Origin: Fidelibacterota bacterium
GTDB lineage: Bacteria; Fidelibacterota; Marinisomatia; SCGC-AAA003-L08; TS1B11
Direction: 5' to 3'
Length of the DNA: 64,000 nucleotides
Assembly: GCA_020354025.1 (NCBI GenBank)
Contig: CP070638.1
Coordinates: 345,897-409,896, forward strand
Position 1 is the first letter of the stretch; every line of letters starts with the position of its first letter. This document shows, one piece after another, positions 3,335 through 63,026 of the stretch. Position numbers and translations under genes: made by a program. The notes beneath the pieces are model-generated. The model searched no databases. It saw only the letters and a program-made list of their open reading frames with translations, and was not told where the DNA came from.

Positions 3335-4358
3335 ATTGAATTCCTCATCAAAAACCGATTCCCCCCGCCTTAGCTATAAAACGGTGGGAGTCGACATCGA
3401 TGCCGGTGAAGCGGCCGTTGATCGAATCAAAAAGCTAACCGCTACCACCCACGGTCCTCAGGTGCTGACAAACCTGGGCGGCTTTGGTGGCTTATATGAG
3501 TTTCCCAGAGATGACTATCGGCAACCGGTGCTGGTCTCCAGTACTGATGGAGTGGGTACCAAGCTCAAGATCGCATTCCTGACAGGCCGCCATGACACGA
3601 TTGGACAGGACTTGGTGAATCACTGTGTCAACGACATCCTGACCACTGGGGCTCTGCCGCTCTACTTCCTCGATTACTTTGCTACCAGCTCTTTGGATGG
3701 CGATGTATTTGAAAAGGTTGTTGAGGGTATCACCAAGGCGTGTATTGAAAATGGCTGTGCCCTGATTGGTGGAGAGACAGCCGAGATGCCCGACTTTTAC
3801 CAGCCTGGGGAATACGATATTTCCGGCACTATCGTTGGTGTTGTTGAGAAAGATGAGATCCTAACAGAACGGGCTATTAAAAGGGGGGATTTACTGGTTG
3901 GCCTGCCTTCCACCGGGCTGCATACCAATGGCTATTCCCTGGCCCGCAAGGCTTTGCTGCGGGAATGGACGGTGGATACCGAGCTGCCAGAATTAGATTG
4001 CACTGTGGGTGAGGCAATGCTGACCATCCATCGCTCATATCTACCGGTGATGCGGCCGATCCTGACCCAACCGTGGCTGCATGGCGCAGCCCATATCACC
4101 GGTGGTGGTATCGAGGGAAATCTGAGCCGTCCTTTACCAGAAGACTGCCACCTGGCCGTCGACTGGTCCGCCTGGGAATGGCCGCCGGTATTCCAGGTAG
4201 TTCAGCAAGCTGGCGGTGTGGACACCGAAGACATGCGCCGAACCTTCAACCTGGGAATCGGCTGGGTGTTAATTATCGCTTCCAACAGTTCTAGCTCACT
4301 GGAACATTACTTTCAGAAGATAGGTGAGCCCTACATCCTGTTTGGTGAAGTGCGCTGA
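3303..4358 (+). CDS. purM: Phosphoribosylformylglycinamidine cyclo-ligase (AIR synthetase)
   Basis: It carries out step 5 of purine synthesis, closing FGAM to AIR with ATP. Key segments are YKTVGVDIDAG at the N-terminus, VLVSSTDGVGTKLKIAF (ATP/phosphate loop), GALPLYFLDYFA, GGETAEMPDFY and the C-terminal HITGGGIEGNL. The frame gives 351 residues, close to the usual 340 to 350. The start is uncertain. There is no ATG before the conserved domain. TTG at 3303 has a GGAGGA only 2 nt upstream, which is too close, and TTG at 3336, just after the acyl-CoA ligase stop, has no visible SD. gpsA follows 4 nt after its stop, so the two are almost certainly co-transcribed. purL lies 7 kb away rather than next door. 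Confidence 0.95.
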   Translation: MSPYTRTLPSRLNSSSKTDSPRLSYKTVGVDIDAGEAAVDRIKKLTATTHGPQVLTNLGGFGGLYEFPRDDYRQPVLVSSTDGVGTKLKIAFLTGRHDTIGQDLVNHCVNDILTTGALPLYFLDYFATSSLDGDVFEKVVEGITKACIENGCALIGGETAEMPDFYQPGEYDISGTIVGVVEKDEILTERAIKRGDLLVGLPSTGLHTNGYSLARKALLREWTVDTELPELDCTVGEAMLTIHRSYLPVMRPILTQPWLHGAAHITGGGIEGNLSRPLPEDCHLAVDWSAWEWPPVFQVVQQAGGVDTEDMRRTFNLGIGWVLIIASNSSSSLEHYFQKIGEPYILFGEVR

Positions 4359-7518: not shown

Positions 7519-7592
7519 GCCCTTGTAGCTCAGTTGGATAGAGCATCTGCCTCCTAAGCAGAGGGTCCCCGGTTCGAGTCCGGGCAAGGGTA
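7519..7592 (+). tRNA. tRNA-Arg (anticodon CCT)
   Basis: A full cloverleaf can be drawn. The acceptor arm pairs GCCCTTG with CAAGGGT (first pair G-U). The D arm is GCTC/GAGC. The anticodon stem is TCTGC/GCAGA around loop CTCCTAA, so the anticodon is CCT. The T arm is CCCGG/CCGGG with TTCGAGT. Discriminator A; CCA is not encoded. It lies 47 nt after the metalloprotease gene and 43 nt before the tandem small-protein genes. Confidence 0.97.
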
Positions 7593-7635
7593 CGGTGCTT
7601 GTCGCATTCATTCTTGAACACTAGGAGGGATAACA

Positions 7636-16833: not shown

Positions 16834-16907
<74 letters not shown>

Positions 16908-16914
16908 CAGAGAA

Positions 16915-24436: not shown

Positions 24437-24706
24437 CTCTTACTCCTCTCATTATGTTATCGTTTCAAACAGATAAATATTAATCTTCACTGGTATCAGC
24501 CAAATTGGACATTATTCAAACCTGCAGCACATGGTTCCCATGCGCAGCTGCATTATGGTATGACGAGGAAAGGATGACGCCCACCTTCCCTTGTCGGGAC
24601 AACAATATTCCCCTTATGGATTTCTCCGGGAGAACCCGAAGATTCACTCTATACTAGAGCATAGGGTAGAAGATATTGATAAGTGGCTTTTCGAGCCCTT
24701 TGGACG
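24437..24706. other. Intergenic region holding an open frame interrupted by TGA
   Basis: On the plus strand an ATG at 24531 opens MVPMRSCIMV, meets TGA at 24561, and continues open for 53 codons to TGA at 24723-24725, inside the tRNA-Pro locus. The part after TGA looks protein-like (SPYGFLRENPKIHSILE, EDIDKWLFEPFG). It has no SD. It may be a decayed remnant, chance, or (since tRNA-Sec is encoded in this window) a selenocysteine frame; I rate the last as unlikely. The left end carries the promoter of the minus-strand glutamate-synthase-like gene. Confidence 0.3.
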
Positions 24707-24780
<74 letters not shown>

Positions 24781-44318: not shown

Positions 44319-46877
44319 TTACAGCCGTACCTGCAGCTCCACGAAGTAGCTCCGTGTCGCGCCGGGCCAGTAGCCGTCCACGCGATAGGGCGGCCAGCCG
44401 TAGGAATCATCATAGTAGGTGTAGCCGAAAGTCTCGTACAGGACATCGAAAACATTCTCTACTCGCAAACTTAAGACGGGATGAATAAATCCTATTGACG
44501 GCAGCTTGAATCTTGTTCCCAGGTGAATCAATGTGTAAGGATCAATTGCCAGGGAGTCTATATTATCAACATGAATAAATTGCTTCCCTGCATGATTGAC
44601 CTGAATCCATATTTCTATTGAGTTCAGCGGTATTACAGCAGTTCCTTTGGTCTGGATCATAGGAAAAGCTGGCATTATCTTGCCGCTGTAATCCGTAAAT
44701 CCACCCTCTCCCTTATGACCAAAAGCAGCCTGTTGTAGCTCGACAAAGTGATTGTCAGCATAAGCCAGGTTTCCACCCAGCCGTAGCCAGGAAGCGGGAG
44801 CAGCTTCCAGAGATATTTCCAAACCCTGGTGCACCGTTTTCGGCGCATTTCCCTGCAATACTTCATCAGCGTCGTAGTACCTGTAGGCAAAGGGAATAAG
44901 CTCATCCCTGAAGTCCATGCGGTATAGATTCAACTTCCCGCTGACGACAGGCAGTCTGAACCGCACACCGGCCTCATAGTCTATCAGGAATTCTTCCATG
45001 ACCAGGGGATTGGCGTAATCGGCCTCCATATCTGTGACTGCGGGGACCATGTCAGGATCATCGTGGTCATAGATATCCCCATCCGCCGGTTCCCGGTGTC
45101 CGGTAGACAGGTTGGCAAAGATGGATACAGCATCGTTCACCCGGTAATTGAGACCCAGGTGGGGATCGATGAAGTCGTACTTCAGCTTGAAGTCATAACC
45201 TTCGGTGAATGCCCCCATCACGTCCTGATCGAATGTATACCGATGTCCGAGATAACGCAGGTCAGCCATGACGCTCAACCGATCAGTGAGATTCAGGATT
45301 GAATGTAGATAGAAAGAAAAGGTGCTCTTTCTGCTACGGTCCGTATAATAGCGGTGGTCCTTTTCAATGCCCAGCCCTCCGAGCAGCTCAGGGACTTTCC
45401 CGAAGTGCTCTGATGTGTAGAACCGAGCGTCACCGCCTAAAGTCACCCTTCCTAATCGAAAGGGATAGCTGTATTGATAAACCAGGCCGGAGTATCCGTT
45501 CTTTAACCACTTTCGTCGAATGAGTCCCACTTCATGAACAGAATTTGTATCTATAAATGCAAACAAGTCATAAAGTGATAGGAATTCAAAGAACTCCCCT
45601 TTCTCCTCAGCGAGCTCTTCCGGCTCCGTCTCTTCCGGATCGTAATCTTTGCCCTTGAACTGCTCATAATAGCCATCACCTTTTACGGTATAGAGGGTCA
45701 GGTTCAGCAGTCCGCCGCCAACCTTCCTGCTGTGCTGTAGCGAAATGATGGATTGAGTGAAAATATCCTTGTTGGCGTCACCTAAACCGCCGTTCCAGGT
45801 GGGATCGGCGTAGTAGTTATAACGGCGATCCTCACGGTCATCCAAATCATAGCCATATAGGGGAATAATCCCCTCCCACGAGAACGCAGTCTCCTCATAA
45901 CCGCGGATTGCCTCGAGGCGGGTCAGCGTGGTGGCCGTGCTCTTCTCCAATCCGGCGTGAAAGGATTGTTGAGCGGTGCCGCTGCCGATGCGGTAACCTT
46001 CACTGGCCAGGTCGCTGATTCGACCATAAAGCGTCCAGCCCTGCTCCTGCCAGGGACCGCCGGCATAGCTGAGAGACAGCTTACGATTGGGCAGGTCCAG
46101 ACCCTTTTCGGTAAAGTTGCCATACCCGGCGCTGAAGGCAAACCCGGCCGGGAGGGCTCTGAAATCGGTAGCCAGATTCACTGTGCCACCAAATACCCCG
46201 CTGCCGTAGAGTGAGTTACCCACCCCCCGCTGCAGCTGGATATCGCTGGTGGCGGCTAGTATATCGCCGTGATCTACCCAGTAGACGGCATGAGCTTCGG
46301 GATCATTGAGGGGAATACCATTTAGGTAGACACCAATGCGATCCTGTGAGAAACCCCGGATTTTAAGATAGGTATAGCCCACTCCGTTCCCCGCGTCCGA
46401 GTAGGCATAGACTCCCGGCTCACCGGCCAGTACCATGGGCACGTCTTGGTGGCTGTAGGTCCTATCGATCTTGTCCCGGTCCAATGTGGAAAATGCTATC
46501 GGTGTCTGCCCTTCAATAGCCCTGGTGGCCGTCACCAGCACTTCTTCCCCGCTCAACACAGTGGGCTCAAGATAAACTGCGCCTAGCTCCTCATCTGCTG
46601 CGGTGATCATCTTATCGGCGAAACCGATACGTGTGATCCATAGCGTAACAGGTAGTATGCTTACGTTCAGACGGAAATTCCCCGCCCCTGAGGCGAACGT
46701 GCCCTCCCCCGTTCCCTCAACCAGTACGTTGGCGTAAGGCACCGGGCCCTGGGTCACACTGGAAAGGACCTGGCCGGTGAGAGTGAATTGCTGTGCTTCC
46801 AGGTATAGGGGTAGTAGGAACCATAAAGGATGTAAAAACCCCTTACAGATAAGGGGAAAACGGTAAGCGTATCTCAT
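44319..46877 (-). CDS. TonB-dependent outer-membrane receptor, probable thiamin/TPP uptake
   Basis: An 852-residue outer-membrane receptor. A signal peptide is followed by a carboxypeptidase-regulatory-like domain (FTLTGQVLSSVTQGPVPYANVLVEGTGEGTFA, residues 30-110). The plug domain has IKVRGF-type KIRGFSQDRIGVYLNGIPLNDPEAH and GVGNSLYGSGVFGGTVNLAT. The large beta-barrel ends in the aromatic YFVELQVRL. The TPP riboswitch whose 3' end supplies its SD (46883-46962) makes thiamin, TPP or a precursor the most likely ligand. Bacteroides has a known thiamin receptor of this kind. The TonB/ExbB partners are not in the window. A terminator-like hairpin follows the stop. Confidence 0.93.
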   Translation of the reverse strand: MRYAYRFPLICKGFLHPLWFLLPLYLEAQQFTLTGQVLSSVTQGPVPYANVLVEGTGEGTFASGAGNFRLNVSILPVTLWITRIGFADKMITAADEELGAVYLEPTVLSGEEVLVTATRAIEGQTPIAFSTLDRDKIDRTYSHQDVPMVLAGEPGVYAYSDAGNGVGYTYLKIRGFSQDRIGVYLNGIPLNDPEAHAVYWVDHGDILAATSDIQLQRGVGNSLYGSGVFGGTVNLATDFRALPAGFAFSAGYGNFTEKGLDLPNRKLSLSYAGGPWQEQGWTLYGRISDLASEGYRIGSGTAQQSFHAGLEKSTATTLTRLEAIRGYEETAFSWEGIIPLYGYDLDDREDRRYNYYADPTWNGGLGDANKDIFTQSIISLQHSRKVGGGLLNLTLYTVKGDGYYEQFKGKDYDPEETEPEELAEEKGEFFEFLSLYDLFAFIDTNSVHEVGLIRRKWLKNGYSGLVYQYSYPFRLGRVTLGGDARFYTSEHFGKVPELLGGLGIEKDHRYYTDRSRKSTFSFYLHSILNLTDRLSVMADLRYLGHRYTFDQDVMGAFTEGYDFKLKYDFIDPHLGLNYRVNDAVSIFANLSTGHREPADGDIYDHDDPDMVPAVTDMEADYANPLVMEEFLIDYEAGVRFRLPVVSGKLNLYRMDFRDELIPFAYRYYDADEVLQGNAPKTVHQGLEISLEAAPASWLRLGGNLAYADNHFVELQQAAFGHKGEGGFTDYSGKIMPAFPMIQTKGTAVIPLNSIEIWIQVNHAGKQFIHVDNIDSLAIDPYTLIHLGTRFKLPSIGFIHPVLSLRVENVFDVLYETFGYTYYDDSYGWPPYRVDGYWPGATRSYFVELQVRL

Positions 46878-46882
46878 ATTTA

Positions 46883-46962
46883 TTTCCCTCCGCTGGTATT
46901 ATCCAGTTCAGGTTCAAAGGGTTTGATCTCAGCCATCCGGCCATTGACGGACAGCACCCCAT
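46883..46962 (-). promoter_or_regulatory. TPP (thiamin pyrophosphate) riboswitch
   Basis: Minus-strand reading gives GGGGTGCT (46960), then GGCTGAGATC (46934-46925), and then the long near-invariant 3' block AACCTGAACTGGATAATACC...GCGGAGGGAA (46914-46884). These match the thi-box order: P3 side, CUGAGA loop, P4/P5 with the pyrophosphate-binding sequence. GGAGGG (46891-46886) in the last block is 8 nt from the receptor ATG, so ligand binding can directly hide the SD; control is thus likely at translation. P1 pairing just outside this block is weak to my eye. Confidence 0.95.
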
Positions 46963-47069
46963 TTACGTTTTGAAGTTATTACTAATTTGACACTATTCTC
47001 AAGGAAATCGGGGCACGAATCGGACACGGAACTCTCGGAGGGAAGACTTTCTTGACCGTTCTGCAACTA

Positions 47070-53135: not shown

Positions 53136-54347
53136 CTATTGTAAAATGAGATGTCCTAGCTTATCTCGTTTGGTTTCCAGATAAAGCTTGTTTTCGGCAT
53201 GGGCTGGGATCTCGACTGGTTCCCGATCCACCACCTCCAGACCGTATCCATCCAGACCGACGATCTTCCTGGGATTGTTCGTCAGCAGCCGCAGCTTCCG
53301 CACGCCCAGGTCTCTCAGTATCTGAGCGCCTATGCCATACTCCCGCAAATCAGACTTGAAACCGAGGCTCTGGTTGGCTTCTACCGTATCCAGACCCTTT
53401 TCCTGCAGGCTATATGCCAACAGCTTGTTTTTCAGGCCGATCCCCCGCCCTTCCTGACGTAAATATACCAGCACCCCCCGTCCCTCATCGTTGATCCTCT
53501 GAAGGGCTCTCTCGAGCTGTGGCCCGCAGTCGCATCGGAAGGAACCGAAAATATCTCCGGTGAGGCACTGGCTGTGAACCCGCACTAGAACTGGGTCATC
53601 ATCTGAAAATTCGCCTTTGACCAGGGCAAGGTGCGTATCATGATGGATATTGTCCTGATAGACAGCCAGATTGAACTCGCCGTACCTGGTAGGGAATCGC
53701 AACGTCGTCAGCAATTCCACCAGCTTCTCCCTGGTGCGTCGGTAGGCGATGATCTCGGCCACGCTGATGATTTTTAGCCCGTACTTCTTGGCGATTGCTT
53801 CCAGCTTCTCACCTCGGGCCATGCTGCCATCCTCATCCACGATCTCTACCAGCAGGGCCATCGGCTGGGCGTCGGTCTCCTCGGCTATAGCCAGCCGCGC
53901 CAAGTCCACGCTGGCCTCAGTATGCCCCGCCCGCTGGAGCACCCCTCCCGGCTTGGCCACTAGCGGGAACATATGACCCGGTCGCGCCAGATCCTGTGAC
54001 TGAGCATTCGGATCAAGAAGAACCTGGAGCGTCTGCCAGCGGTCTTGGGCGGAAATACCGGTGGCAGTTTTCTCCACAGCGTCCACGCTCACGGTAAAGG
54101 CTGTCTCGTGTAGGGCAGTGTTCCGGGGCACCATGGGAGGAAGCCTCAGCTGCTGGGCTCGCTCTTTGGTAAGCGGTACACAGATAAGACCCCGTCCAGT
54201 GCGCATCATGAAGTTGATGTCTTCCGGCCGGGCTTTCTCCGCCAGCATGATAAAATCCCCCTCATCCTCACGCTCCTTGTCGTCCGTGACGATGACCATC
54301 TTGCCGGCCCTCAGATCGTTCAGTACATCTTCTACTAATTCAAACAT
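53136..54347 (-). CDS. ribBA: 3,4-DHBP synthase / GTP cyclohydrolase II fusion
   Basis: A 403-residue fusion supplying both riboflavin precursors. The N-terminal DHBP synthase has MVIVTDDKEREDEGDFIMLAEKA, TGRGLICVPLT and GHTEASVDLARLAIAEETDAQPMALLVEIVDEDGSMAR. The C-terminal cyclohydrolase has the zinc cysteines in VRVHSQCLTGDIFGSFRCDCGPQL, then GRGVLVYLRQEGRGIGL, and the RLLTNNPRKIVGLDGYGLEV block. Length is normal. It follows ribE by 2 nt, so it is co-translated. No FMN riboswitch is seen in front of the operon. Confidence 0.98.
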   Translation of the reverse strand: MFELVEDVLNDLRAGKMVIVTDDKEREDEGDFIMLAEKARPEDINFMMRTGRGLICVPLTKERAQQLRLPPMVPRNTALHETAFTVSVDAVEKTATGISAQDRWQTLQVLLDPNAQSQDLARPGHMFPLVAKPGGVLQRAGHTEASVDLARLAIAEETDAQPMALLVEIVDEDGSMARGEKLEAIAKKYGLKIISVAEIIAYRRTREKLVELLTTLRFPTRYGEFNLAVYQDNIHHDTHLALVKGEFSDDDPVLVRVHSQCLTGDIFGSFRCDCGPQLERALQRINDEGRGVLVYLRQEGRGIGLKNKLLAYSLQEKGLDTVEANQSLGFKSDLREYGIGAQILRDLGVRKLRLLTNNPRKIVGLDGYGLEVVDREPVEIPAHAENKLYLETKRDKLGHLILQ

Positions 54348-54349
54348 GC

Positions 54350-55003
54350 TCAGCTTTCGCCAAATCCCCAGCTGCGCAGGATCCCTAGGTCAATATCTCC
54401 ATACTCTTCATCAGGTTCCGTCTCCAGGAAACGCTCAAGGTAGCGAGCAACGATGTCGGTCTCAACATTCACCGGCTCACCTGCCTGCTTTTTACCGAGG
54501 ATTGTCTGTGACAGGGTAAAGGGAATGAGCGCAACTGTAAGACCGGCATGCGAGACATCTACTATGGAAAGCGATACCCCGTCAAGCGCGATGGAGCCCT
54601 TGGGAATACAGTAGCGCAGCCAGTAGGTGTCAACGGTAACAGTCATGCGCACGTCTCCGTGATCCACAGTGACATTGTTGATGTACCCCACCGTCTCTAC
54701 GTGCCCCTGCACAACGTGCCCGTGGAACCGGTCCATCGGTCCCATTGCTCGCTCCAGATTTACCTGGCTGCCCGGTGCGATTTCGCTGAGATTGCTCTTT
54801 TCCAACGTCTCGGAAACCACCTGAACCGTAAAATCCTCTTCAGATTGGTCAACCACAGTCAGGCATACACCATTGACACTGATACTGTGTCCCGTTTCCA
54901 GGTCCTCCATTATCTTCTCACCGGTAATTATCAGCGAGTCATATCCATTTCCATGAGTCCGGCTGACTACACGACCGATCTCTTCAACTATACCTGTAAA
55001 CAT
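54350..55003 (-). CDS. ribE: Riboflavin synthase, alpha subunit
   Basis: A 217-residue enzyme that dismutates lumazine to riboflavin. It has two lumazine-binding repeats: MFTGIVEEIGRV, GHSISVNGVCLTVV, then FHGHVVQGHVETVG and GSIALDGVSLSIV. The C-terminus carries DIVARYLERFLETEPDEEYG. Length and repeat order are normal. The start overlaps the ribD stop by 1 nt (coupled). Confidence 0.97.
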   Translation of the reverse strand: MFTGIVEEIGRVVSRTHGNGYDSLIITGEKIMEDLETGHSISVNGVCLTVVDQSEEDFTVQVVSETLEKSNLSEIAPGSQVNLERAMGPMDRFHGHVVQGHVETVGYINNVTVDHGDVRMTVTVDTYWLRYCIPKGSIALDGVSLSIVDVSHAGLTVALIPFTLSQTILGKKQAGEPVNVETDIVARYLERFLETEPDEEYGDIDLGILRSWGFGES

Positions 55004-56175
55004 TAAGCGTTGTTCCTCGCTATAGAACTTTGATTTAGCATTCCCAATAATGAATGGCCGGGCTGCGCCACAACCAGTTGGTCCCCGCCAATCTCCTCAT
55101 CTTTGACCACACTCCAACCCTCAGGAATGACTAACGCGTTGCGCAAACCTGCCTCCCGCTTTACTTCTGGGTCCGCTTCAAGGGGCGCAGTGAACAGGAC
55201 CACCTCATCCATCAAATCGGCTCGAAGAAATTCTCGGTGCAGGGTTGGTCCGCCTTCAACCAGGAGTGATGTGATGCCCCGCTCCCCCAGCGCATCCAGT
55301 ACCTCCGCCAGGTCAACCCCGGCAGCTGAAGGAGTTACTTTTATCCGCTCGCCCCAAGGGGTTACCCCGCACTCACCCTTGGTGGTAATAACCATAGTCG
55401 GGGCGGCACCGTCATGAAAGAGCCGCAAATCACCGGGCAGCCGCAAGCGGGTGTCCAGCACTATACGCCGGGGATTGTGACCAGCCACATCCCGGACGGT
55501 TAGCTGCGGGTCGTCTATCTCCGCTGTTATCCGGCCAACTAGTATCCCATCCGCTTCGGCACGCAGACCATGGACCCAGCGTCGGGACTCAGGAGACGTA
55601 AACCATTTGCGCTCCGGACTGGCCGCCACAAAATCATCTCTGGTGCGGGCCACTTGAAGGATTACATACGGCCTGCCGGTTAGGATCCACTTGGAGAAAT
55701 CCCTGATCAAGCGGATCCCCTCTTCAGCCAGGATGCCTTCGGCTATTTCAATACCAGACGACTTCAGCTGCGCTATCCCGCAGCCGTTCACCCTGGGATT
55801 GGGATCGCGGACAGCTACAACCACCCGCTTTATACCGGCACCCACCAAAGCATCAGTGCAAGGCGGAGTCTTCTTGCCGGCAAAGCTGGTTGCGCAGGGT
55901 TCAAGAGTAACGTAGGCGGTGGCACCCCGGGCCTTCGTACCTGCATCCAGAATAGCATGGGTCTCAGCGTGGGGACCGCCGAAACGCTCGTGATACCCCT
56001 CCCCTACTACTTGACCGTCACGAACGAGCACACAGCCGACCATCGGGTTTGGGCTGGTGAGCCCCATACCGCGTTTGGCCAGTGTAAATGCCCGGGACAT
56101 ATAGTGCTCATCTTCAGCCAGTCCATGATGGTGGATGCCTGATTTCCCGGGCTTGACGGTTGTTTCGGTCCCCAT
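55003..56175 (-). CDS. ribD: Riboflavin biosynthesis deaminase/reductase
   Basis: About 390 residues. The N-terminal deaminase has NPMVGCVLVRDGQVVGEGYHERFGGPHAETHAI, then VTLEPCATSFAGKKTPPC (zinc His, Cys, Cys). The C-terminal reductase has RPYVILQVARTRDDFVA, DGILVGRITAEIDDPQLTVRD and SLLVEGGPTLHREFL. The long frame starts at 56238, inside the site-2 protease gene. ATG at 56175 has AAGG 6 nt upstream and falls just after that gene's stop, so I chose it. The ATG at 56181 is adjacent to the SD and less likely. First rib gene of the operon. Confidence 0.95.
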   Translation of the reverse strand: MGTETTVKPGKSGIHHHGLAEDEHYMSRAFTLAKRGMGLTSPNPMVGCVLVRDGQVVGEGYHERFGGPHAETHAILDAGTKARGATAYVTLEPCATSFAGKKTPPCTDALVGAGIKRVVVAVRDPNPRVNGCGIAQLKSSGIEIAEGILAEEGIRLIRDFSKWILTGRPYVILQVARTRDDFVAASPERKWFTSPESRRWVHGLRAEADGILVGRITAEIDDPQLTVRDVAGHNPRRIVLDTRLRLPGDLRLFHDGAAPTMVITTKGECGVTPWGERIKVTPSAAGVDLAEVLDALGERGITSLLVEGGPTLHREFLRADLMDEVVLFTAPLEADPEVKREAGLRNALVIPEGWSVVKDEEIGGDQLVVAQPGHSLLGMLNQSSIARNNA

Positions 56176-56183
56176 ATTCATCC

Positions 56184-57254
56184 TTATGACATCTTTAAAG
56201 GTACAGGAATAAAACACAAGATGAAAACAAACAGACATACGAGACCGATGATCAATTCGTACGCTGTAAGTGGTCGGTTAACGTCCGGGACCGGCGGATG
56301 TTTCACCGTACGCATTAGTATCAGGATCAGAAAGCCCCAGAAGAGCCAATTGGGCGATAGAAATATGCCCATGGGTATGAGAGCTACCAGTATGGCTCGC
56401 CCCAACCATTCCTGCCGGTCACCGAGAAGGGCGTAGGCAATATGGCCGCCGTCTAACTGAGCCATCGGCAGGAGATTCAACATTGTCACCAGTAAGCCAA
56501 TCCAGCCCGCAAAGCCCACTGAGTGTAAAAGAATATCTTCTCCGGCCTCCAGACCGGGAAACATTAATGCCGTTGCAGCCTTCATCAGCAGGCTGTCCCC
56601 CAAAAAGAATCCCCCCGCTTCGATCTCGACAACGGTGGATAGATGCAGACCGTAGATCAGTGCGGGCACGGCTACCAGAAAACCGGCAATGGGACCCGCG
56701 GCACCGATCTCCAATAATGCCAGGCGACTGGGAATAGGTCCCCGCATCTTGATAAAGGCTCCAAAGGTGCCAATGATAATGGGTGGTGGTGCCGGAATGA
56801 AATAGGGCAGTGAGACATCGACCCGGTGGCGACGGGCAAAAATGTAGTGACCGGACTCGTGAATCCCAAGAATCGCCATGAGAGTAAGGCTGAAAGGCCA
56901 TCCCTGGATGATGGTCCAGGGTTCCTTGAAGATGTTGTGTCCATTCAGGATAGCCCCCGCTGCCAGAGTGGTCAGAACCGTTGCCAGGAAAAGGAGAACG
57001 TGCGCTCGCGACAGTCGGGGGTAGGTTCGGCGAATACGCTCCCGCAGTATCACATACGACCGGCCATTCCCATGATGGTAGTTTATATCCAGATCCAATC
57101 CCTCCAAGGCTGCCCGATCGGCACCTTTCTCAGTCCCATCTATTAGGTGGTAGAAAACAACCTCACCGTCGCCCAGCTTTCCCCGCCTGTCAATGATCGC
57201 TACCCGGGACAGGGATTGGATCCCGTCTTCAATCTTTGCAGATGCAGTCATCAC
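56184..57254 (-). CDS. Site-2 protease family (M50) membrane metalloprotease
   Basis: A 356-residue intramembrane zinc protease. The zinc motif is LGIHESGHYIFARRH (HExxH), the third ligand is in LNLLPMAQLDGGHIAYALLG (NxxPxxxLDGG), with a GPIAGFLVAVPALIYGL helix and a conserved PLAFI-like FIKMRGPIP segment. About six or seven helices. The N-terminal soluble part (KIEDGIQSLSRVAIIDRRGK) is not a PDZ domain that I can recognise, resembling EGY1/YwhC-like proteins. It precedes ribD by 8 nt and likely shares its transcript. Substrates unknown. Confidence 0.92.
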   Translation of the reverse strand: MMTASAKIEDGIQSLSRVAIIDRRGKLGDGEVVFYHLIDGTEKGADRAALEGLDLDINYHHGNGRSYVILRERIRRTYPRLSRAHVLLFLATVLTTLAAGAILNGHNIFKEPWTIIQGWPFSLTLMAILGIHESGHYIFARRHRVDVSLPYFIPAPPPIIIGTFGAFIKMRGPIPSRLALLEIGAAGPIAGFLVAVPALIYGLHLSTVVEIEAGGFFLGDSLLMKAATALMFPGLEAGEDILLHSVGFAGWIGLLVTMLNLLPMAQLDGGHIAYALLGDRQEWLGRAILVALIPMGIFLSPNWLFWGFLILILMRTVKHPPVPDVNRPLTAYELIIGLVCLFVFILCFIPVPLKMS

Positions 57255-57292: not shown

Positions 57293-57859
57293 TCACGGGA
57301 GAATTAGTGAATCGGGCTTATACCACTTCTTCAGCTCCCTGACAGAAGATGGCAGGTAGACTTCCGATGGTGGCTTGGGAAACATAGGTTTGGTTATTCC
57401 CTCAATGGAGATGGGGACTTCTTCAGTGTTCAGCGTAGTCAGGTAGTTAATCCAATCACGGCAAGCCTGTGTGTAGTCAGCTACAACGCTGTCCGGAAAG
57501 CCCATGGCTCCCAACGAAGTAATCACCACGGCTGAGACTATCGGCAGGTATCGATTGCTCGGATTCTTGTAGAACTCGTCGGTGCCCCGAACGAGGTCAT
57601 CTAGGGCAAAGCGATTCAAGTAGTCGCTGTAGAGGGAATCAGCTAGGGTGGGATCTGCGGCATAAGTCTGCAGGTGATTATACATTCGGCTATTCAATAG
57701 GCCTCGGATATAAGCCCGTTTCATCGGCAGCCTGAACTCGGGGTACTCCTGGGTCAGGCGGTCTATCTCTAACCAATTATAGCCGTCCCAGAACAGTTTG
57801 GACGACTGGGCCGAGAGCACCGTCATCAGTGCAATAGCAAAAATGAGACTTCTAATCAT
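57293..57859 (-). CDS. Exported protein of unknown function just downstream of tRNA-Sec
   Basis: A 188-residue protein. ATG at 57859 gives a clean signal peptide (MIRSLIFAIALMTVLSAQSS). The longer frame to 57910 runs through the tRNA-Sec gene and is rejected. The mature part has SKLFWDGYNWLEIDRL, RAYIRGLLNSRMYN, SLYSDYLNRFALDDLV, FYKNPSNRYLPIVSAVVIT and a C-terminal PSSVRELKKWYKPDSLILP. No motif recognised. The ATG is 3 nt after the tRNA end and lacks an SD, so translation would be leaderless if the tRNA is cut out. It lies upstream of nothing on this strand but the M50 gene, 39 nt before it starts. Confidence 0.8.
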   Translation of the reverse strand: MIRSLIFAIALMTVLSAQSSKLFWDGYNWLEIDRLTQEYPEFRLPMKRAYIRGLLNSRMYNHLQTYAADPTLADSLYSDYLNRFALDDLVRGTDEFYKNPSNRYLPIVSAVVITSLGAMGFPDSVVADYTQACRDWINYLTTLNTEEVPISIEGITKPMFPKPPSEVYLPSSVRELKKWYKPDSLILP

Positions 57860-57862
57860 TTG

Positions 57863-57953
57863 CGGAAACGTGTCGGAGTCGAACCGACCATCCGTCAACC
57901 GACGGATCAACAGTTTTGAAGACTGCGGCGCCCACCGGGACGCATACGCTTCC
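57863..57953 (-). tRNA. selC: tRNA-Sec (selenocysteine, anticodon TCA)
   Basis: A 91-nt tRNA on the minus strand. It has the unusual 8-bp acceptor (GGAAGCGT with ACGTTTCC, one G-U) seen in selenocysteine tRNAs and a 5-bp T stem (GTCGG/CCGAC with TTCGACT). The anticodon loop CTTCAAA gives TCA. There is a long variable arm (TCCGTCGGTTGACGGA), a long D arm, and discriminator G. It serves SelA/SelB-dependent reading of UGA. None of selA, selB or selD is in the window. It sits tightly between two coding genes. Confidence 0.95.
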
Positions 57954-57957
57954 AGAC

Positions 57958-58815
57958 CTAATCTTCAGAAAGTACAAGGTAGCTTATTCCGTAATTCTCC
58001 TTCAGGAGTCTTCCGGCCATTTCGGCATCTTCACGAGATCTGAATCCTATTACCATGACGATGTGAAGGATTCGGTCCCCCGATCGAGTACGGATGATTT
58101 CAACCCGGTAATTTAGCGATTCCAGCAGAGCCTTCTGTCGTTCAGCATTCTCCTGCACGCTGAAAGCCCCTACCTGTAATTTGAATCGTTGCATGGTCCC
58201 GGGATCTTTGGGTGGTGTACTATCGGTTCTCCTTGGCGCTCCGGGACCGGGAACTGCACTCTTGCTGTCGATCTGAGAATGGCTCTCCGGCCCGCCAAAA
58301 GCCTTCCCGGCTTCCAGATCGAATTCTATCTCGGAGTATTTGCGGGAGAACACCTGGGCGTAAAAAAGAGCCGTATCGCGATTGCCCGATACTAACATCG
58401 CATTCAGGAACAGTCGGACTCCTGGGTAGACCAGGTCCGATCGAGGGTAATGCACCGGAATACGCTTTAGGTATTGAGCTGCCTGGACGTATAATCCTCG
58501 GGAATACAGGTACTCACCGATTTTTAAAATTGCGTCATCGGCGTATGGGCTGGAAGGGTAAAGACGGGCCACCCGCTTGTATATATCGATGGCATCATCT
58601 CCATCACGAGTGATGAGCCCCTCAAGGTACAGGACAGTCCCATCGTCCGGATGCTGATCATAGAGTTGAGGCAGAGCCTCGGCGACCTCTTCTACCTTCC
58701 CTTGATATGCCAGGCTAAAGTAATAATCAAGGTCCTGGCCCCACATGGGAACAAAAGTCAGTAGGACAAGGAAAACCGGGCAGCGGGAATTACTCCAGTT
58801 TCTCCAGGGGATCAC
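57958..58815 (-). CDS. Exported TPR/SPOR-domain protein
   Basis: A 285-residue protein. A signal peptide (CPVFLVLLTFVPMWG) is followed by TPR-like repeats (GTVLYLEGLITRDGDDAIDIYKRV, ADDAILKIGEYLYSRGLYVQAAQYLKRI), a Pro/Ser-rich linker (PGPGAPRRTDSTPPKDPG) and a C-terminal SPOR domain (RFKLQVGAFSVQENAERQKALLESLNYRVEI...). SPOR domains bind denuded glycan at division sites, so this protein may localise to the septum. The start overlaps the LapB-like gene by 26 nt. Its stop is 4 nt before the tRNA-Sec 5' end. Confidence 0.87.
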   Translation of the reverse strand: MIPWRNWSNSRCPVFLVLLTFVPMWGQDLDYYFSLAYQGKVEEVAEALPQLYDQHPDDGTVLYLEGLITRDGDDAIDIYKRVARLYPSSPYADDAILKIGEYLYSRGLYVQAAQYLKRIPVHYPRSDLVYPGVRLFLNAMLVSGNRDTALFYAQVFSRKYSEIEFDLEAGKAFGGPESHSQIDSKSAVPGPGAPRRTDSTPPKDPGTMQRFKLQVGAFSVQENAERQKALLESLNYRVEIIRTRSGDRILHIVMVIGFRSREDAEMAGRLLKENYGISYLVLSED

Positions 58816-60013
58816 TGCTTGGGTCCAGCCAGCTCATCAGAGATGTGGGGGCTTCCCGATAGCTGGCCTGCGCTTGTGCTTGTAGACGAATGGAATCCAC
58901 GAGATGGTCCAGTTCTGGCTTTAGGTTGCGCTGGTCGTCCTGCCGATAGCTGAGCTTCAGCTGGATGGCCTGTATCAAGGGATTGCTGGTGGCTGCCTCA
59001 GGGATGGTACTCAGCAGCACCTCCGCCCGATCCAGGTCACCCTTACGCACATAGAAATTGGCCAGACCGGCTACTACATCCAGATTATCGGGGTCTTTCC
59101 CTAATATCTGCTTGAGAAATGGTTCCATATCGTCGAATCGCTGGAGATAGAACAGGGCATCTTCGACCTTTGGGAGTACCATAGATGTGTCAGAGGGTGA
59201 AATATCTAGAAAGGCAGACCAGTGAGCCACCGCCTGTGAATAAAGCTTGGCGACTTTTTCTTCCAGATTCTGCTGCTTTAGGGGATCATCCGCTTCGTCA
59301 GATGTATTCAAGGTAGAGAGTTCCCTTCGGTAGGAATCAGCTTCCTCCACATAGGATTCCGCCAGGAAGTATTGAGCCGGTGCAAAATTCCCATCAATTT
59401 TCAGTGCCTGCTGGTAATGGCCGCGAATTGTCTCCGGCGATTCCTCATGGCGCTGGTCGTATCCCTGTCGGAAGCGGCAAAGGGCCAGGAGTCGGGTGTC
59501 CTCTTTGTCAGTAGCTTTCTGCCATTGGGCCAGGTACTTTCCCGCTGCTTCCCAGTTTCCCAGTCCCCGGTAGAACTTTACCAGATGGCGCAAAGCCCAG
59601 GCATTACGTTTCTCGAGCTTGAGGATGGCCAGAACCCGCTCTACTGCCTGATCATACTGCCTGAGCTCGCCGTGGTCCAGGGCCAGGTTCTTGAGCAGCT
59701 CCACCCGCTCATATACGGTGAGTTCAGACCGGACTAACAGGCTTTCGTGAAGCTTAAGGGCGCTCTCGGATGCGCCGCCCCGTCGCATTACTTGCCCTAA
59801 CTTCAGGTAGGCGGAGGTATGCTCGGTGTCACGGTCGATAACTCCCTTAAAGCATTGGTAAGCCTGCTTCAGGTTGCCACGCAACAGGTGATCGAGCCCC
59901 TCGGTATACAAGCTCTTGACATCGCGTCGGCCTCGGGGACGCGTCATTATTACCAGTGCAATACCCACTATCAGGATAGCTGCGACAACCAGGATGATAT
60001 AGAGTGTGGACAT
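58790..60013 (-). CDS. lapB: LapB/YciM-like TPR membrane protein without rubredoxin domain
   Basis: A 407-residue protein with one N-terminal membrane helix (LYIILVVAAILIVGIALVIM) and a long TPR array (YTEGLDHLLRGNLKQAYQCFKGVI, TSAYLKLGQVMRRGGASESALKLHESLL, NAWALRHLVKFYRGLGNWEAAGKYL). This is the architecture of LapB, which in E. coli controls LPS synthesis by steering LpxC breakdown. The rubredoxin-like Cys module at the C-terminus of E. coli LapB is missing: the tail here is SLMSWLDPSSDPLEKLE. The LapA-like gene lies just upstream, as in E. coli, which supports the name. Confidence 0.83.
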   Translation of the reverse strand: MSTLYIILVVAAILIVGIALVIMTRPRGRRDVKSLYTEGLDHLLRGNLKQAYQCFKGVIDRDTEHTSAYLKLGQVMRRGGASESALKLHESLLVRSELTVYERVELLKNLALDHGELRQYDQAVERVLAILKLEKRNAWALRHLVKFYRGLGNWEAAGKYLAQWQKATDKEDTRLLALCRFRQGYDQRHEESPETIRGHYQQALKIDGNFAPAQYFLAESYVEEADSYRRELSTLNTSDEADDPLKQQNLEEKVAKLYSQAVAHWSAFLDISPSDTSMVLPKVEDALFYLQRFDDMEPFLKQILGKDPDNLDVVAGLANFYVRKGDLDRAEVLLSTIPEAATSNPLIQAIQLKLSYRQDDQRNLKPELDHLVDSIRLQAQAQASYREAPTSLMSWLDPSSDPLEKLE

Positions 60014-60022
60014 GTCCGCTTG

Positions 60023-60400
60023 TTATTCTAGCTGGGACGGCGACTCTTCAGGAGAGGCGGTCGCCGGTTCCGTATCAGGTAATACTTCATGTTCGCTTTC
60101 GAAAAACTCTTCACTCAAAGCCGAATGCCGCAGGTTGTTAAGCTCGGTGCGCAGTTTCTTTAACTGCCGGTTCTGTTGCCGTACTTCTGCATGTTGAGTG
60201 ATGATCTGTACTAGCCCAATGGCAAATCCCAACAGGATCCCCGCCGCCAGGGTGATGACCAGCACATGGGCCAGATTTATGTCAGGCAGTTCCATTCCCG
60301 GTAAAAGCCAGATTGTTACATATTGGCCGGAGTTCTTGCTCAGAAAAAAAGCGAGGGCTAGCACAATCAATAGACCTAGCAGAATCTTAACCAACCGCAT
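60023..60400 (-). CDS. lapA: LapA-domain membrane protein
   Basis: A 125-residue protein with two transmembrane helices (ILLGLLIVLALAFFLSKN and VLVITLAAGILLGFAIGLVQII) joined by a short loop with GMELPDINLAHV, the LapA (YciS-like) layout. A coiled segment (AEVRQQNRQLKKLRTELNNLRH) and an acidic, Pro/Glu-rich tail follow. The start overlaps the miaB stop by 14 nt. With the next gene it forms a lapA-lapB pair of the LPS-control kind. The tail is longer than in E. coli LapA (102 residues). Confidence 0.85.
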   Translation of the reverse strand: MRLVKILLGLLIVLALAFFLSKNSGQYVTIWLLPGMELPDINLAHVLVITLAAGILLGFAIGLVQIITQHAEVRQQNRQLKKLRTELNNLRHSALSEEFFESEHEVLPDTEPATASPEESPSQLE

Positions 60401-61730
60401 GATACGCCTCCTGACAGGATAAATCTACCGCGTTTATGATATGTCCTTGCAGGGCCACACCATGTGAAGTATCGATATGTACTTTCACGAAATCTTTGAT
60501 CCGGGCACTTTCCTTATCAAATACCACCCACTTGTTGCCATCGGTTCGCCCGGCCCACTGCAAGGATGACTTTTTGCTCTCCTTCTCAACCAGCACTTCC
60601 ACCTCCCGCCCTACGTAGGTCCGGTTCCGCACTAGCGTAATGGCCTTTTGAACCGCGATTAGCTGCTCCAGGCGCTCCTGTTTTACCTCATCTGGCACTT
60701 GGTCTTCATACTCAGCAGCCTTCGTTCCCGGTCTGATAGAGTATTTGAAGGTAAAAGCCGAATCAAATCCCAATTGCTCGACTACCTGCAGGGTTTCCTG
60801 AAATTCCACATCCTGCTCCCCGGGGAATCCCACGATGATGTCCGTGCTGATTGTGCACTCAGGCATGACCGCCCGAATACGCTCCACAAGCCTGATATAT
60901 TCCGATCGGGTATATGAGCGATTCATCCGCCGGAGGATGCGGTCAGAGCCGGCTTGTAGCGGTAAGTGAATGGATTCGCAGATGTTGTCGTGGGCGACCA
61001 TTACATCCAGCAGTCGGTCATCCATGTCCGAGGGATGCGGAGACGTATAGCGGATGCGCCTCACTCCCGGCACCGCCGCCACAGATTCCAGCAAATCAGG
61101 AAAGCGGGTACCTTCATATTGGTAGGAATTCACGTTCTGGCCCAGAAGGGTCACTTCGACAAATCCCTGTCGCACCGCTTCTTCCACTTCGGCCACGATA
61201 CCAGCTACCGAACGACTCCGCTCACGACCACGGGTAAAAGGTACTACACAGAAGGTGCAGAACTTATCACAGCCGCGCATAATGGAGGTCCAGGCATTAA
61301 CACCCTCACGCCGGGATGGGAACATGTCGTCATAAACCTCAAAGCGGGATAGCCGAGTGTCTACAATATGCTCCTGCTCGGCTTTACGGTCCTGGACGAG
61401 CTGGGGTAGGCGTCGGTAGCTGTCAGGGCCCAGAACCATATCTACGTAGGGTTTTGACTCCAGTAGGTCGTCCGACAGGTGTTTTGCCATACAACCAAGC
61501 ACTCCGATGAGAATGGAGGGATCATTCTCTTTCAATCGCGCCAGTTGACTCAGACGGTTGTGGATGGTTTTCTCGGCCTTTTCCCTGATGGCACAGGTGT
61601 TGAACAGAATAATCTGCGCGTCTTCCAACCGCGTAGCTCGCCGATGGCCAGATCCATCTAACAGGCCGGCCACCAACTCCGAATCGGCCACATTCATCTG
61701 ACAGCCGTAGGTCTCAATAAAATATCGCAT
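60387..61730 (-). CDS. miaB: tRNA-2-methylthio-N6-dimethylallyladenosine synthase
   Basis: A 447-residue radical-SAM methylthiotransferase acting on A37 of tRNAs. The N-terminal cluster region is YGCQMNVADSE with GCMAKHL, and the radical-SAM motif is RGCDKFCTFCVVPFTRGRERSR. The central part has TLLGQNVNSYQYEG, HLPLQAGSDRILRRMNRSYT and STDIIVGFPGE. The C-terminal TRAM domain is YVGREVEVLVEKESKKSS. Length is normal. It uses Fe-S clusters. It starts at ATG 61730. Confidence 0.97.
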   Translation of the reverse strand: MRYFIETYGCQMNVADSELVAGLLDGSGHRRATRLEDAQIILFNTCAIREKAEKTIHNRLSQLARLKENDPSILIGVLGCMAKHLSDDLLESKPYVDMVLGPDSYRRLPQLVQDRKAEQEHIVDTRLSRFEVYDDMFPSRREGVNAWTSIMRGCDKFCTFCVVPFTRGRERSRSVAGIVAEVEEAVRQGFVEVTLLGQNVNSYQYEGTRFPDLLESVAAVPGVRRIRYTSPHPSDMDDRLLDVMVAHDNICESIHLPLQAGSDRILRRMNRSYTRSEYIRLVERIRAVMPECTISTDIIVGFPGEQDVEFQETLQVVEQLGFDSAFTFKYSIRPGTKAAEYEDQVPDEVKQERLEQLIAVQKAITLVRNRTYVGREVEVLVEKESKKSSLQWAGRTDGNKWVVFDKESARIKDFVKVHIDTSHGVALQGHIINAVDLSCQEAYHAVG

Positions 61731-61826: not shown

Positions 61827-62792
61827 TTAATAGAAATTGATGGGATTTTGGGATTGTCGGTAGAGACGCACTTCGTAGTGCAGGTGCGGATTTGTAGAAC
61901 GGCCAGTGTTTCCGGACTCCCCGATACGATCACCTCGCTCGATCAGCTGGCCCTCTAGGACACCAATGCGCCGGAGGTGCCCATAAAGAGTACGAAAACC
62001 GTTGCCGTGGTCAATCTTCACGTAGAGCCCCATATTGCTGTCCCATCTGGCGGCTACCACTTTCCCATTGGCAGTGGCGAAAACAGGTGTGCCGGTCCTG
62101 ACTTTGATATCCTGTCCCCGGTGAAAGTCGTACTTCTGCGTATAGGGATCCCGCCGCAGACCGAATCCACTGGTAAGTTTCCCATTTTGTACCGGCAGGA
62201 GGGATGGTGTCGACCTCAGCCTCGCTAGGTCATTTTTCAGTGAGTCACGGATTCCTTCATAGCTCAGCTGTTCCAGCTTCACGCTGCGATAAAGAGCATC
62301 CAATCGCTCTGTTATGCTTGCCAGGGATACATCACTCGACGGCAGGAGGTAATCCATGTCCGTCCGGACCTCGACCATAGTGCCCCCGATGCCAACCTGA
62401 CGGATTCCTGGATTAATATCCGGCATCTGGGCATGGACACGGAGGTCCTGGTCTGTCTCAGACAATGCCTCCACTTCCCGTTGCAGGACCGTTATCCGGT
62501 CTTCAAATCGCTCCACTAATCGATGGAGGGTTGCGTTGTCCTTGCGGAGCTTCGCTACCCGATGGGCATATGCGGTCTCAAGGAGCAGCTGTGAACCAAA
62601 ATAAAATACAATTGGAGTTAGAATAAGCAGGGCAATCAAGCCCCAGAATGCTGCCTTGCCGGAGAGATCAAATTGCCGCAGACCTGAATGCCCTTCTCGG
62701 AGGATCAGGAATTTTAGATTCTTCAGCTTTATTTGGGGGAATAGCCTTTGCCGCTTAGTAATTGATTCCCGCATACTGGACATAATCCGCAT
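61827..62792 (-). CDS. M23-family peptidoglycan endopeptidase, membrane anchored
   Basis: About 321 residues. A basic cytoplasmic stretch (KRQRLFPQIKLKNLKFLILREGHSGLRQFDL) leads to one membrane helix (AAFWGLIALLILTPIVFYFGSQLLL), then a coiled coil (LRKDNATLHRLVERFEDRITVLQREVEALSE) and a C-terminal LytM domain. The zinc sites are in GFGLRRDPYTQKYDFHRGQDIKV (HxxxD) and NTGRSTNPHLHYEVRL (HxH). All metal ligands are kept, so it should cleave peptidoglycan cross-links rather than act only as an activator. The start is uncertain: an in-frame GTG at 62858 and ATGs at 62828 and 62774 also exist. Confidence 0.92.
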   Translation of the reverse strand: MRIMSSMRESITKRQRLFPQIKLKNLKFLILREGHSGLRQFDLSGKAAFWGLIALLILTPIVFYFGSQLLLETAYAHRVAKLRKDNATLHRLVERFEDRITVLQREVEALSETDQDLRVHAQMPDINPGIRQVGIGGTMVEVRTDMDYLLPSSDVSLASITERLDALYRSVKLEQLSYEGIRDSLKNDLARLRSTPSLLPVQNGKLTSGFGLRRDPYTQKYDFHRGQDIKVRTGTPVFATANGKVVAARWDSNMGLYVKIDHGNGFRTLYGHLRRIGVLEGQLIERGDRIGESGNTGRSTNPHLHYEVRLYRQSQNPINFY

Positions 62793-63026
62793 ACTAGTAA
62801 TGATTTTAGCCTTAAATAGCCATCTCATGCAACAGAAACCTACTATATTCGCCCTCACCGAAAATATGATTCAGAAAGGGGCTATACCTAATATTGTGTT
62901 TAATATGTAAGCGGCCATGACGCATTGTATAGTTGATATTATTGTCAGGCCGGGCTATCATGATCTCTATTGTTATTTTTTCAAAGTGCCGGCTACTTCG
63001 CCTACGGCTACGGAACACATTGGTCC

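Follow-up and report, generated by a model that had tools for sequence, protein, structure and literature searches.

Punctuation of transcripts by tRNAs was reportedly described for mitochondria by Ojala, Montoya and Attardi in 1981 (cited in PMC5203842), and in mammalian mitochondria the enzymes involved are RNase P and ELAC2, an RNase Z. Bacteria have mixed operons that carry both tRNA and mRNA, such as the tRNA-tufB operon of Escherichia coli, whereas selC of E. coli stands alone under a promoter of its own. Leaderless mRNAs can be translated by bacteria (PMC4633059), and in actinobacteria such messages have their transcription start at or near the start codon (PMC4633059, PMC4681348). Each of these three phenomena, the mixed operon, the leaderless message and punctuation in mitochondria, is known by itself; the open-access literature, of which our coverage was incomplete, yielded no description of a bacterial leaderless mRNA made by tRNA excision, nor of a conserved 3-nt junction between a tRNA-Sec and an ATG.

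The locus that we describe here lies in a window of 64,000 nucleotides, the whole stretch of DNA analysed, from the 3.40-Mb, single-contig genome of a Fidelibacterota bacterium (G000). Among named genomes, its nearest relatives are metagenome-assembled genomes (MAGs) of Candidatus Neomarinimicrobiota. On its minus strand the window carries a tRNA-Sec gene (selC, 57863..57953), for which the initial annotation had asked for an ARAGORN run. The identification holds: ARAGORN reports a tRNA-SeC with anticodon TCA, and the Rfam model RF01852 matches over its full length (model 1-91, 57953-57864(-)) at 75.4 bits (E 1.1e-13; gathering score, 47), so that the score, the UCA anticodon and the 8-bp acceptor stem all place the gene in this family. 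From the Rfam alignment, the discriminator G is positioned at 57863. On the 5' side, the stop codon (TAG) of an ORF encoding a SPOR-domain protein has its last base at 57958, leaving a spacer of 4 nt (GTCT, 57954..57957(-)) and a predicted RNase P cut at 57954/57953. On the 3' side, the ATG of an exported protein, here called SIG, begins at 57859, 3 nt past the discriminator. The intervening spacer reads CAA (57860..57862(-)) and its first base, C74 (57862(-)), is the sole templated base of CCA and the point at which the templated part of the tRNA is predicted to end. The positions first annotated for the tRNA, the SPOR stop and the ATG are thus all found in the sequence.

Both ORFs and the tRNA lie on one strand, and gaps of 4 and 3 nt leave no room for a separate promoter or terminator. 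A sequence scan of 57700-58300 returned no promoter-like or terminator-like site, the promoter scan covering sigma-70 sites and other promoter types being outside its reach. Given these gaps and the outcome of the scan, a single transcript running through the tRNA is the simplest reading. At minimum free energy, the predicted precursor folds into the cloverleaf of tRNA-Sec, and the region of the start codon lies directly 3' of the acceptor stem and is mostly paired; since the uncut ATG adjoins the acceptor stem in this way, a ribosome could hardly bind SIG before processing. Among the 34 distinct tRNAs of G000, tRNA-Sec is the only one with an ORF of at least 80 aa starting 10 nt or less away.

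The genome also encodes what is needed for this tRNA to function. A tRNA-Sec search of G000 gave one strong match, the window locus, and a second match over the cut-off (49.8 bits) was rejected as a tRNA-Ser. The selA (529.8 bits) and selB (328.3 bits) genes are adjacent at C1:2.770 Mb, and selD (401.9 bits; L151, G000:C1:1667777-1668703) contains one in-frame TGA in the context SHGAG-TGA-ACKLGPEDL, at the position of the catalytic Cys/Sec known for SelD. SelD is therefore likely to be a selenoprotein itself and, with selA and selB present and an active-site TGA in SelD, the window tRNA-Sec is very probably in use.

The genes around tRNA-Sec, all on the minus strand, begin with an M23 peptidase (61827..62858; Pfam and synteny), the first gene of a conserved upstream block. 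This is followed by a miaB-like radical SAM methylthiotransferase (60387..61730; Pfam UPF0004, Radical_SAM and TRAM), a LapA-domain protein (60023..60400; Pfam) and a LapB-like TPR protein (58790..60013; best match the NCBIfam LapB model, below its cut-off, together with synteny), all assigned to the same putative operon as tRNA-Sec, and by the protein with TPR and SPOR domains (57958..58815; Pfam SPOR, 40.2 bits). Downstream of tRNA-Sec come SIG (57293..57859), a protein of 188 aa that has a signal peptide and no Pfam, NCBIfam or PDB relative, an M50 peptidase (56184..57251; Pfam) that starts 41 nt after SIG, and genes named from their sequence as ribD-ribE-ribBA (53136..56238; ORFs and synteny), with which the fused operon ends. 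An AlphaFold2 model of SIG built from five sequences was all-helical, with a mean pLDDT of 52 that is too poor for a fold search. Elsewhere in the window, an 852-aa ORF (44319-46877), possibly a thiamin-related gene, has a TPP riboswitch (46868-46971(-)) at its 5' end.

The reading that we favour, tentatively and at a little below an even chance, is that tRNA-Sec punctuates this bacterial operon and that its excision yields a near-leaderless mRNA. One long transcript would run from the M23 peptidase gene through miaB, lapA, lapB and the SPOR gene into tRNA-Sec, as an internal cistron, and on through SIG and the M50 gene to the riboflavin genes. RNase P would cut at the 5' end of the tRNA, so that the SPOR message keeps 4 nt past its stop codon, and a second cut on the 3' side, most likely right after C74 (57862), would free the tRNA, to which CA would then be added. 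The SIG message would be left with a leader of 2-3 nt (AA-AUG if the cut falls after C74), on which ribosomes would initiate as they do on leaderless mRNAs.

Survival of such a message depends on the maturation of the tRNA 3' end. Bacteria usually employ RNase Z for tRNAs whose genes do not template CCA. In four genomes, a C directly follows the discriminator in all 73 distinct tRNAs (34 from G000 and 39 from G009, G018 and G043), the full CCA is templated in only three of them, and a count made on Rfam coordinates, independent of ARAGORN, gives C74 in 52/52. Within the window, the tRNA loci with this pattern are 7519-7593, 16834-16908, 24706-24780 and 57862-57953. Since C74 is always templated and CA nearly always absent, the gene sequences suggest that C74 is retained from the transcript and that the tRNA 3' end falls after it, giving a SIG leader of about 2 nt. 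In Streptomyces coelicolor, a mapped tRNA cut falls between the two Cs of CCA (PMC4681348).

Searching six-frame translations with one family model, we found no RNase Z over the curated cut-off in G000 and 59 Neomarinimicrobiota relatives, MAGs that are partly incomplete, compared with positive results in 9 of 14 control genomes; this counts against punctuation. The RNase Z-like candidate that scores best in G000, an MBL-fold protein, reaches 99.8 bits where 293 are required; a ribonuclease near C1:3168000, of the MBL fold and far short of the RNase Z cut-offs, was not accepted as RNase Z. G000 does encode an RNase E/G (469 bits). The combination of tRNA genes that template C74 in the four genomes, nearly all without CA, with the lack of a canonical RNase Z over the cut-off in 60 genomes suggests that the phylum has an unusual route of tRNA 3' maturation. 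The initial annotation had proposed that excision would leave the downstream mRNA essentially leaderless: the 3-nt geometry supports this, but the proposal stands only given a precise 3' cut, in genomes where the enzyme most expected to make one was not found over its cut-off. Were the 3' end instead matured by RNase E/G and exonucleases, the 5' end of the downstream mRNA need not survive.

The main rival explanation builds on exactly this route and is, in our view, possible if doubtful. It holds that an RNase E/G-type cut falls within the start of SIG, AAAUGAUUAGAAGUCUCAUUUUU, which is AU-rich, and is followed by 3'-5' trimming back to C74, for which the templating of C74 alone would provide a suitable stop. 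Whereas a precise cut would leave the SIG message near-leaderless, such trimming would degrade it. Each transcript would then give either tRNA-Sec or protein, never both, and SIG would come from transcripts that escape cutting or be expressed from a minor promoter. The identified RNase E/G and the lack of an RNase Z over the cut-off both fit this account; an uncut precursor with no Shine-Dalgarno (SD) sequence and its ATG set against a stably folded tRNA should, however, be translated poorly.

Conservation bears both on punctuation and on a second rival. The initial annotation had named a lack of conservation in relatives as grounds for abandoning its proposal. Within family f1, to which the window belongs, the layout of tRNA-Sec and SIG is kept in all ten further alleles in which the tRNA-Sec and the ORF start were both found (two from G001 and one each from G002, G003 and G005-G010). 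The tRNA-ATG gap is 3 nt in every allele except that of G005, where it is 6 nt, a further point against punctuation, and the spacer letters vary (CAA, CAT, CGA, CAC, CTA, CAG). Recurrence in ten further alleles with differing spacer letters indicates that the layout is not mere chance, and an ORF start 3 nt after the discriminator, conserved across a family, is the geometry expected of tRNA punctuation. The SPOR-tRNA gap is 4 nt in 9/10 f1 genomes and 19 nt in G009. Other gaps of the same operon in f1 are wider or less constant (M23-miaB, 93-100 nt; LapA-TPR, variable; SIG-M50, 33-41 nt in most), and that between ribE and ribBA is 2 nt in all genomes in which both genes were read. Because this last gap is equally invariant, the constant 3-nt spacing provides only weak evidence for selection on length; we discarded it as proof of selection and count its weakness against punctuation. 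In G001 (CP070787.1; L072, L073), two alleles of the locus occur in one single-contig MAG, each interrupted by a run of Ns, and the scaffold probably mixes two strains. The second ORF copy of this genome was considered as a tRNA-free natural control and set aside, since that tRNA is present there too, by its 3' end, next to the N run.

Beyond f1, we compared 36 tRNA-Sec loci from 12 families, the window included, in a non-random sample in which the relatives all belong to one class. A SPOR homologue lies upstream of tRNA-Sec in 34 of these loci, usually as the end of the block M23-miaB-lapA-lapB/TPR-SPOR-tRNA-Sec, and the family-specific part of the locus is the downstream partner only. In many f3 and f4 genomes, a terminator-like hairpin directly follows tRNA-Sec and the operon ends there; in f8 genomes the SIG homologue lies at least 1.4 kb beyond the tRNA, and in f18 (G086) about 21 nt past its ARAGORN end. 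Some f2 and f3 genomes have another ORF 8-15 nt past tRNA-Sec, encoding a short membrane protein, an exported protein or a product that looks like IleS. At L108 (G011), a 1107-aa ORF resembling isoleucyl-tRNA synthetase starts 15 nt after tRNA-Sec with no obvious SD. At L103 (G032), an ORF with a signal-peptide-like sequence directly follows tRNA-Sec (3996-4088(-)) without a preceding ATG, GTG or TTG, its nearest in-frame start codon being a GTG within the tRNA; this could reflect a start overlapping the tRNA, a rare start codon or a sequencing error. L178 (G018), from another family, repeats the 3-nt geometry with a different tRNA: a tRNA-Leu(TAA), then C-GC-ATG and a plausible ORF of 92 aa. 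With the upstream block found class-wide and the downstream neighbours differing among families, the f1 layout looks as if a deletion had joined two old operons, one ending in the tRNA and one of the exported protein and M50. The coupling of tRNA-Sec to envelope genes, initially singled out as unusual, is mostly upstream and part of an old, class-wide gene order, and is not peculiar to the SIG mRNA.

The second rival is gene packing of little functional meaning. A deletion in the f1 ancestor would have placed the downstream genes next to the tRNA, their transcription would start from a promoter that the scan missed, within the tRNA or the SPOR gene, and the tight spacing would simply have persisted. 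We consider this doubtful. The terminator-like hairpins of f3 and f4, the distant f8 homologue and the equally invariant ribE-ribBA gap all speak for it, and a promoter outside the sigma-70 class would have passed through our scan; against it, the scan returned no promoter-like site, and any message begun within the tRNA would have a piece of that tRNA for its leader.

The start codon itself was examined by homology. In an alignment of 27 SIG homologues, 19 of them from outside f1 and most of these not adjoining tRNA-Sec, the column of M1 is invariant and is followed by the signal peptide and a KLFWDG-like motif. The ATG at 57859, first argued from the signal peptide, is thereby supported as the true start. 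The initial annotation had also noted the lack of an SD, and would have been contradicted by a promoter and SD within the tRNA that serve this ATG; the scan and the duplex energy with the anti-SD give neither. The energy upstream of ATG 57859 is +0.1 kcal/mol, the anti-SD being assumed because the 16S search gave only a 410-base match that did not recover the 3' end. While the absence is real, its distinctiveness is not: an SD-like site of -6 kcal/mol or better precedes only about half of the 42 long window ORFs, compared with 24% of internal controls, and as the M50 gene, about half of the window genes and most SIG homologues not behind a tRNA likewise lack one, we no longer treat it as a hallmark of the junction. 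Translation from a TTG at 57910 inside the tRNA, to which the frame is open (a 205-aa ORF), or from a point further down in the gene is highly improbable, given that M1 aligns with the start of the 19 outside homologues, that every f1 member having that gene part has an ATG at the same place, and that initiation in the tRNA would add 17 residues ahead of the signal peptide.

Taken together, our results point to tentative punctuation by tRNA-Sec. Given a precise cut, this would be a bacterial example, conserved in evolution, of the mitochondrial style with a near-leaderless message, and would link tRNA-Sec production to expression of an exported protein. A broader view, which we consider unlikely, is that in a phylum with C74-only tRNA genes and a tRNA 3'-maturation route that does without canonical RNase Z one family built tRNA-Sec excision into an envelope/riboflavin operon, either as a near-leaderless arrangement or as an either-or switch; in the latter case, selenocysteine tRNA supply and a secreted protein would be tied to one processing event. 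The phylum-level pattern of C74-only tRNA genes, with no canonical RNase Z found over the cut-off, points to an unexplained 3'-maturation route and may prove the more interesting lead.

Compared with mitochondrial punctuation, the locus shares a tRNA set between protein genes with spacers of zero to a few nucleotides, whose excision would free the tRNA and set an mRNA 5' end with little or no leader; it differs in that one tRNA is involved, in a bacterial operon of otherwise ordinary genes, and mammalian mitochondria possess ELAC2 whereas here no canonical RNase Z exceeds the cut-off. Like mixed tRNA-mRNA operons, it is predicted to place tRNA and protein genes in one transcript, but those have a normal leader between tRNA and ORF in place of 3 nt and no SD. 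The relatives G009 and G043 show such a pair, a tRNA-Thr with an ORF of 396 aa, the length of EF-Tu, about 50 nt downstream. As in actinobacterial leaderless mRNAs, translation is predicted to start at or within a few nucleotides of the 5' end, although that end would here come from tRNA processing. Finally, like E. coli selC it is a tRNA-Sec gene, but one embedded between protein genes.
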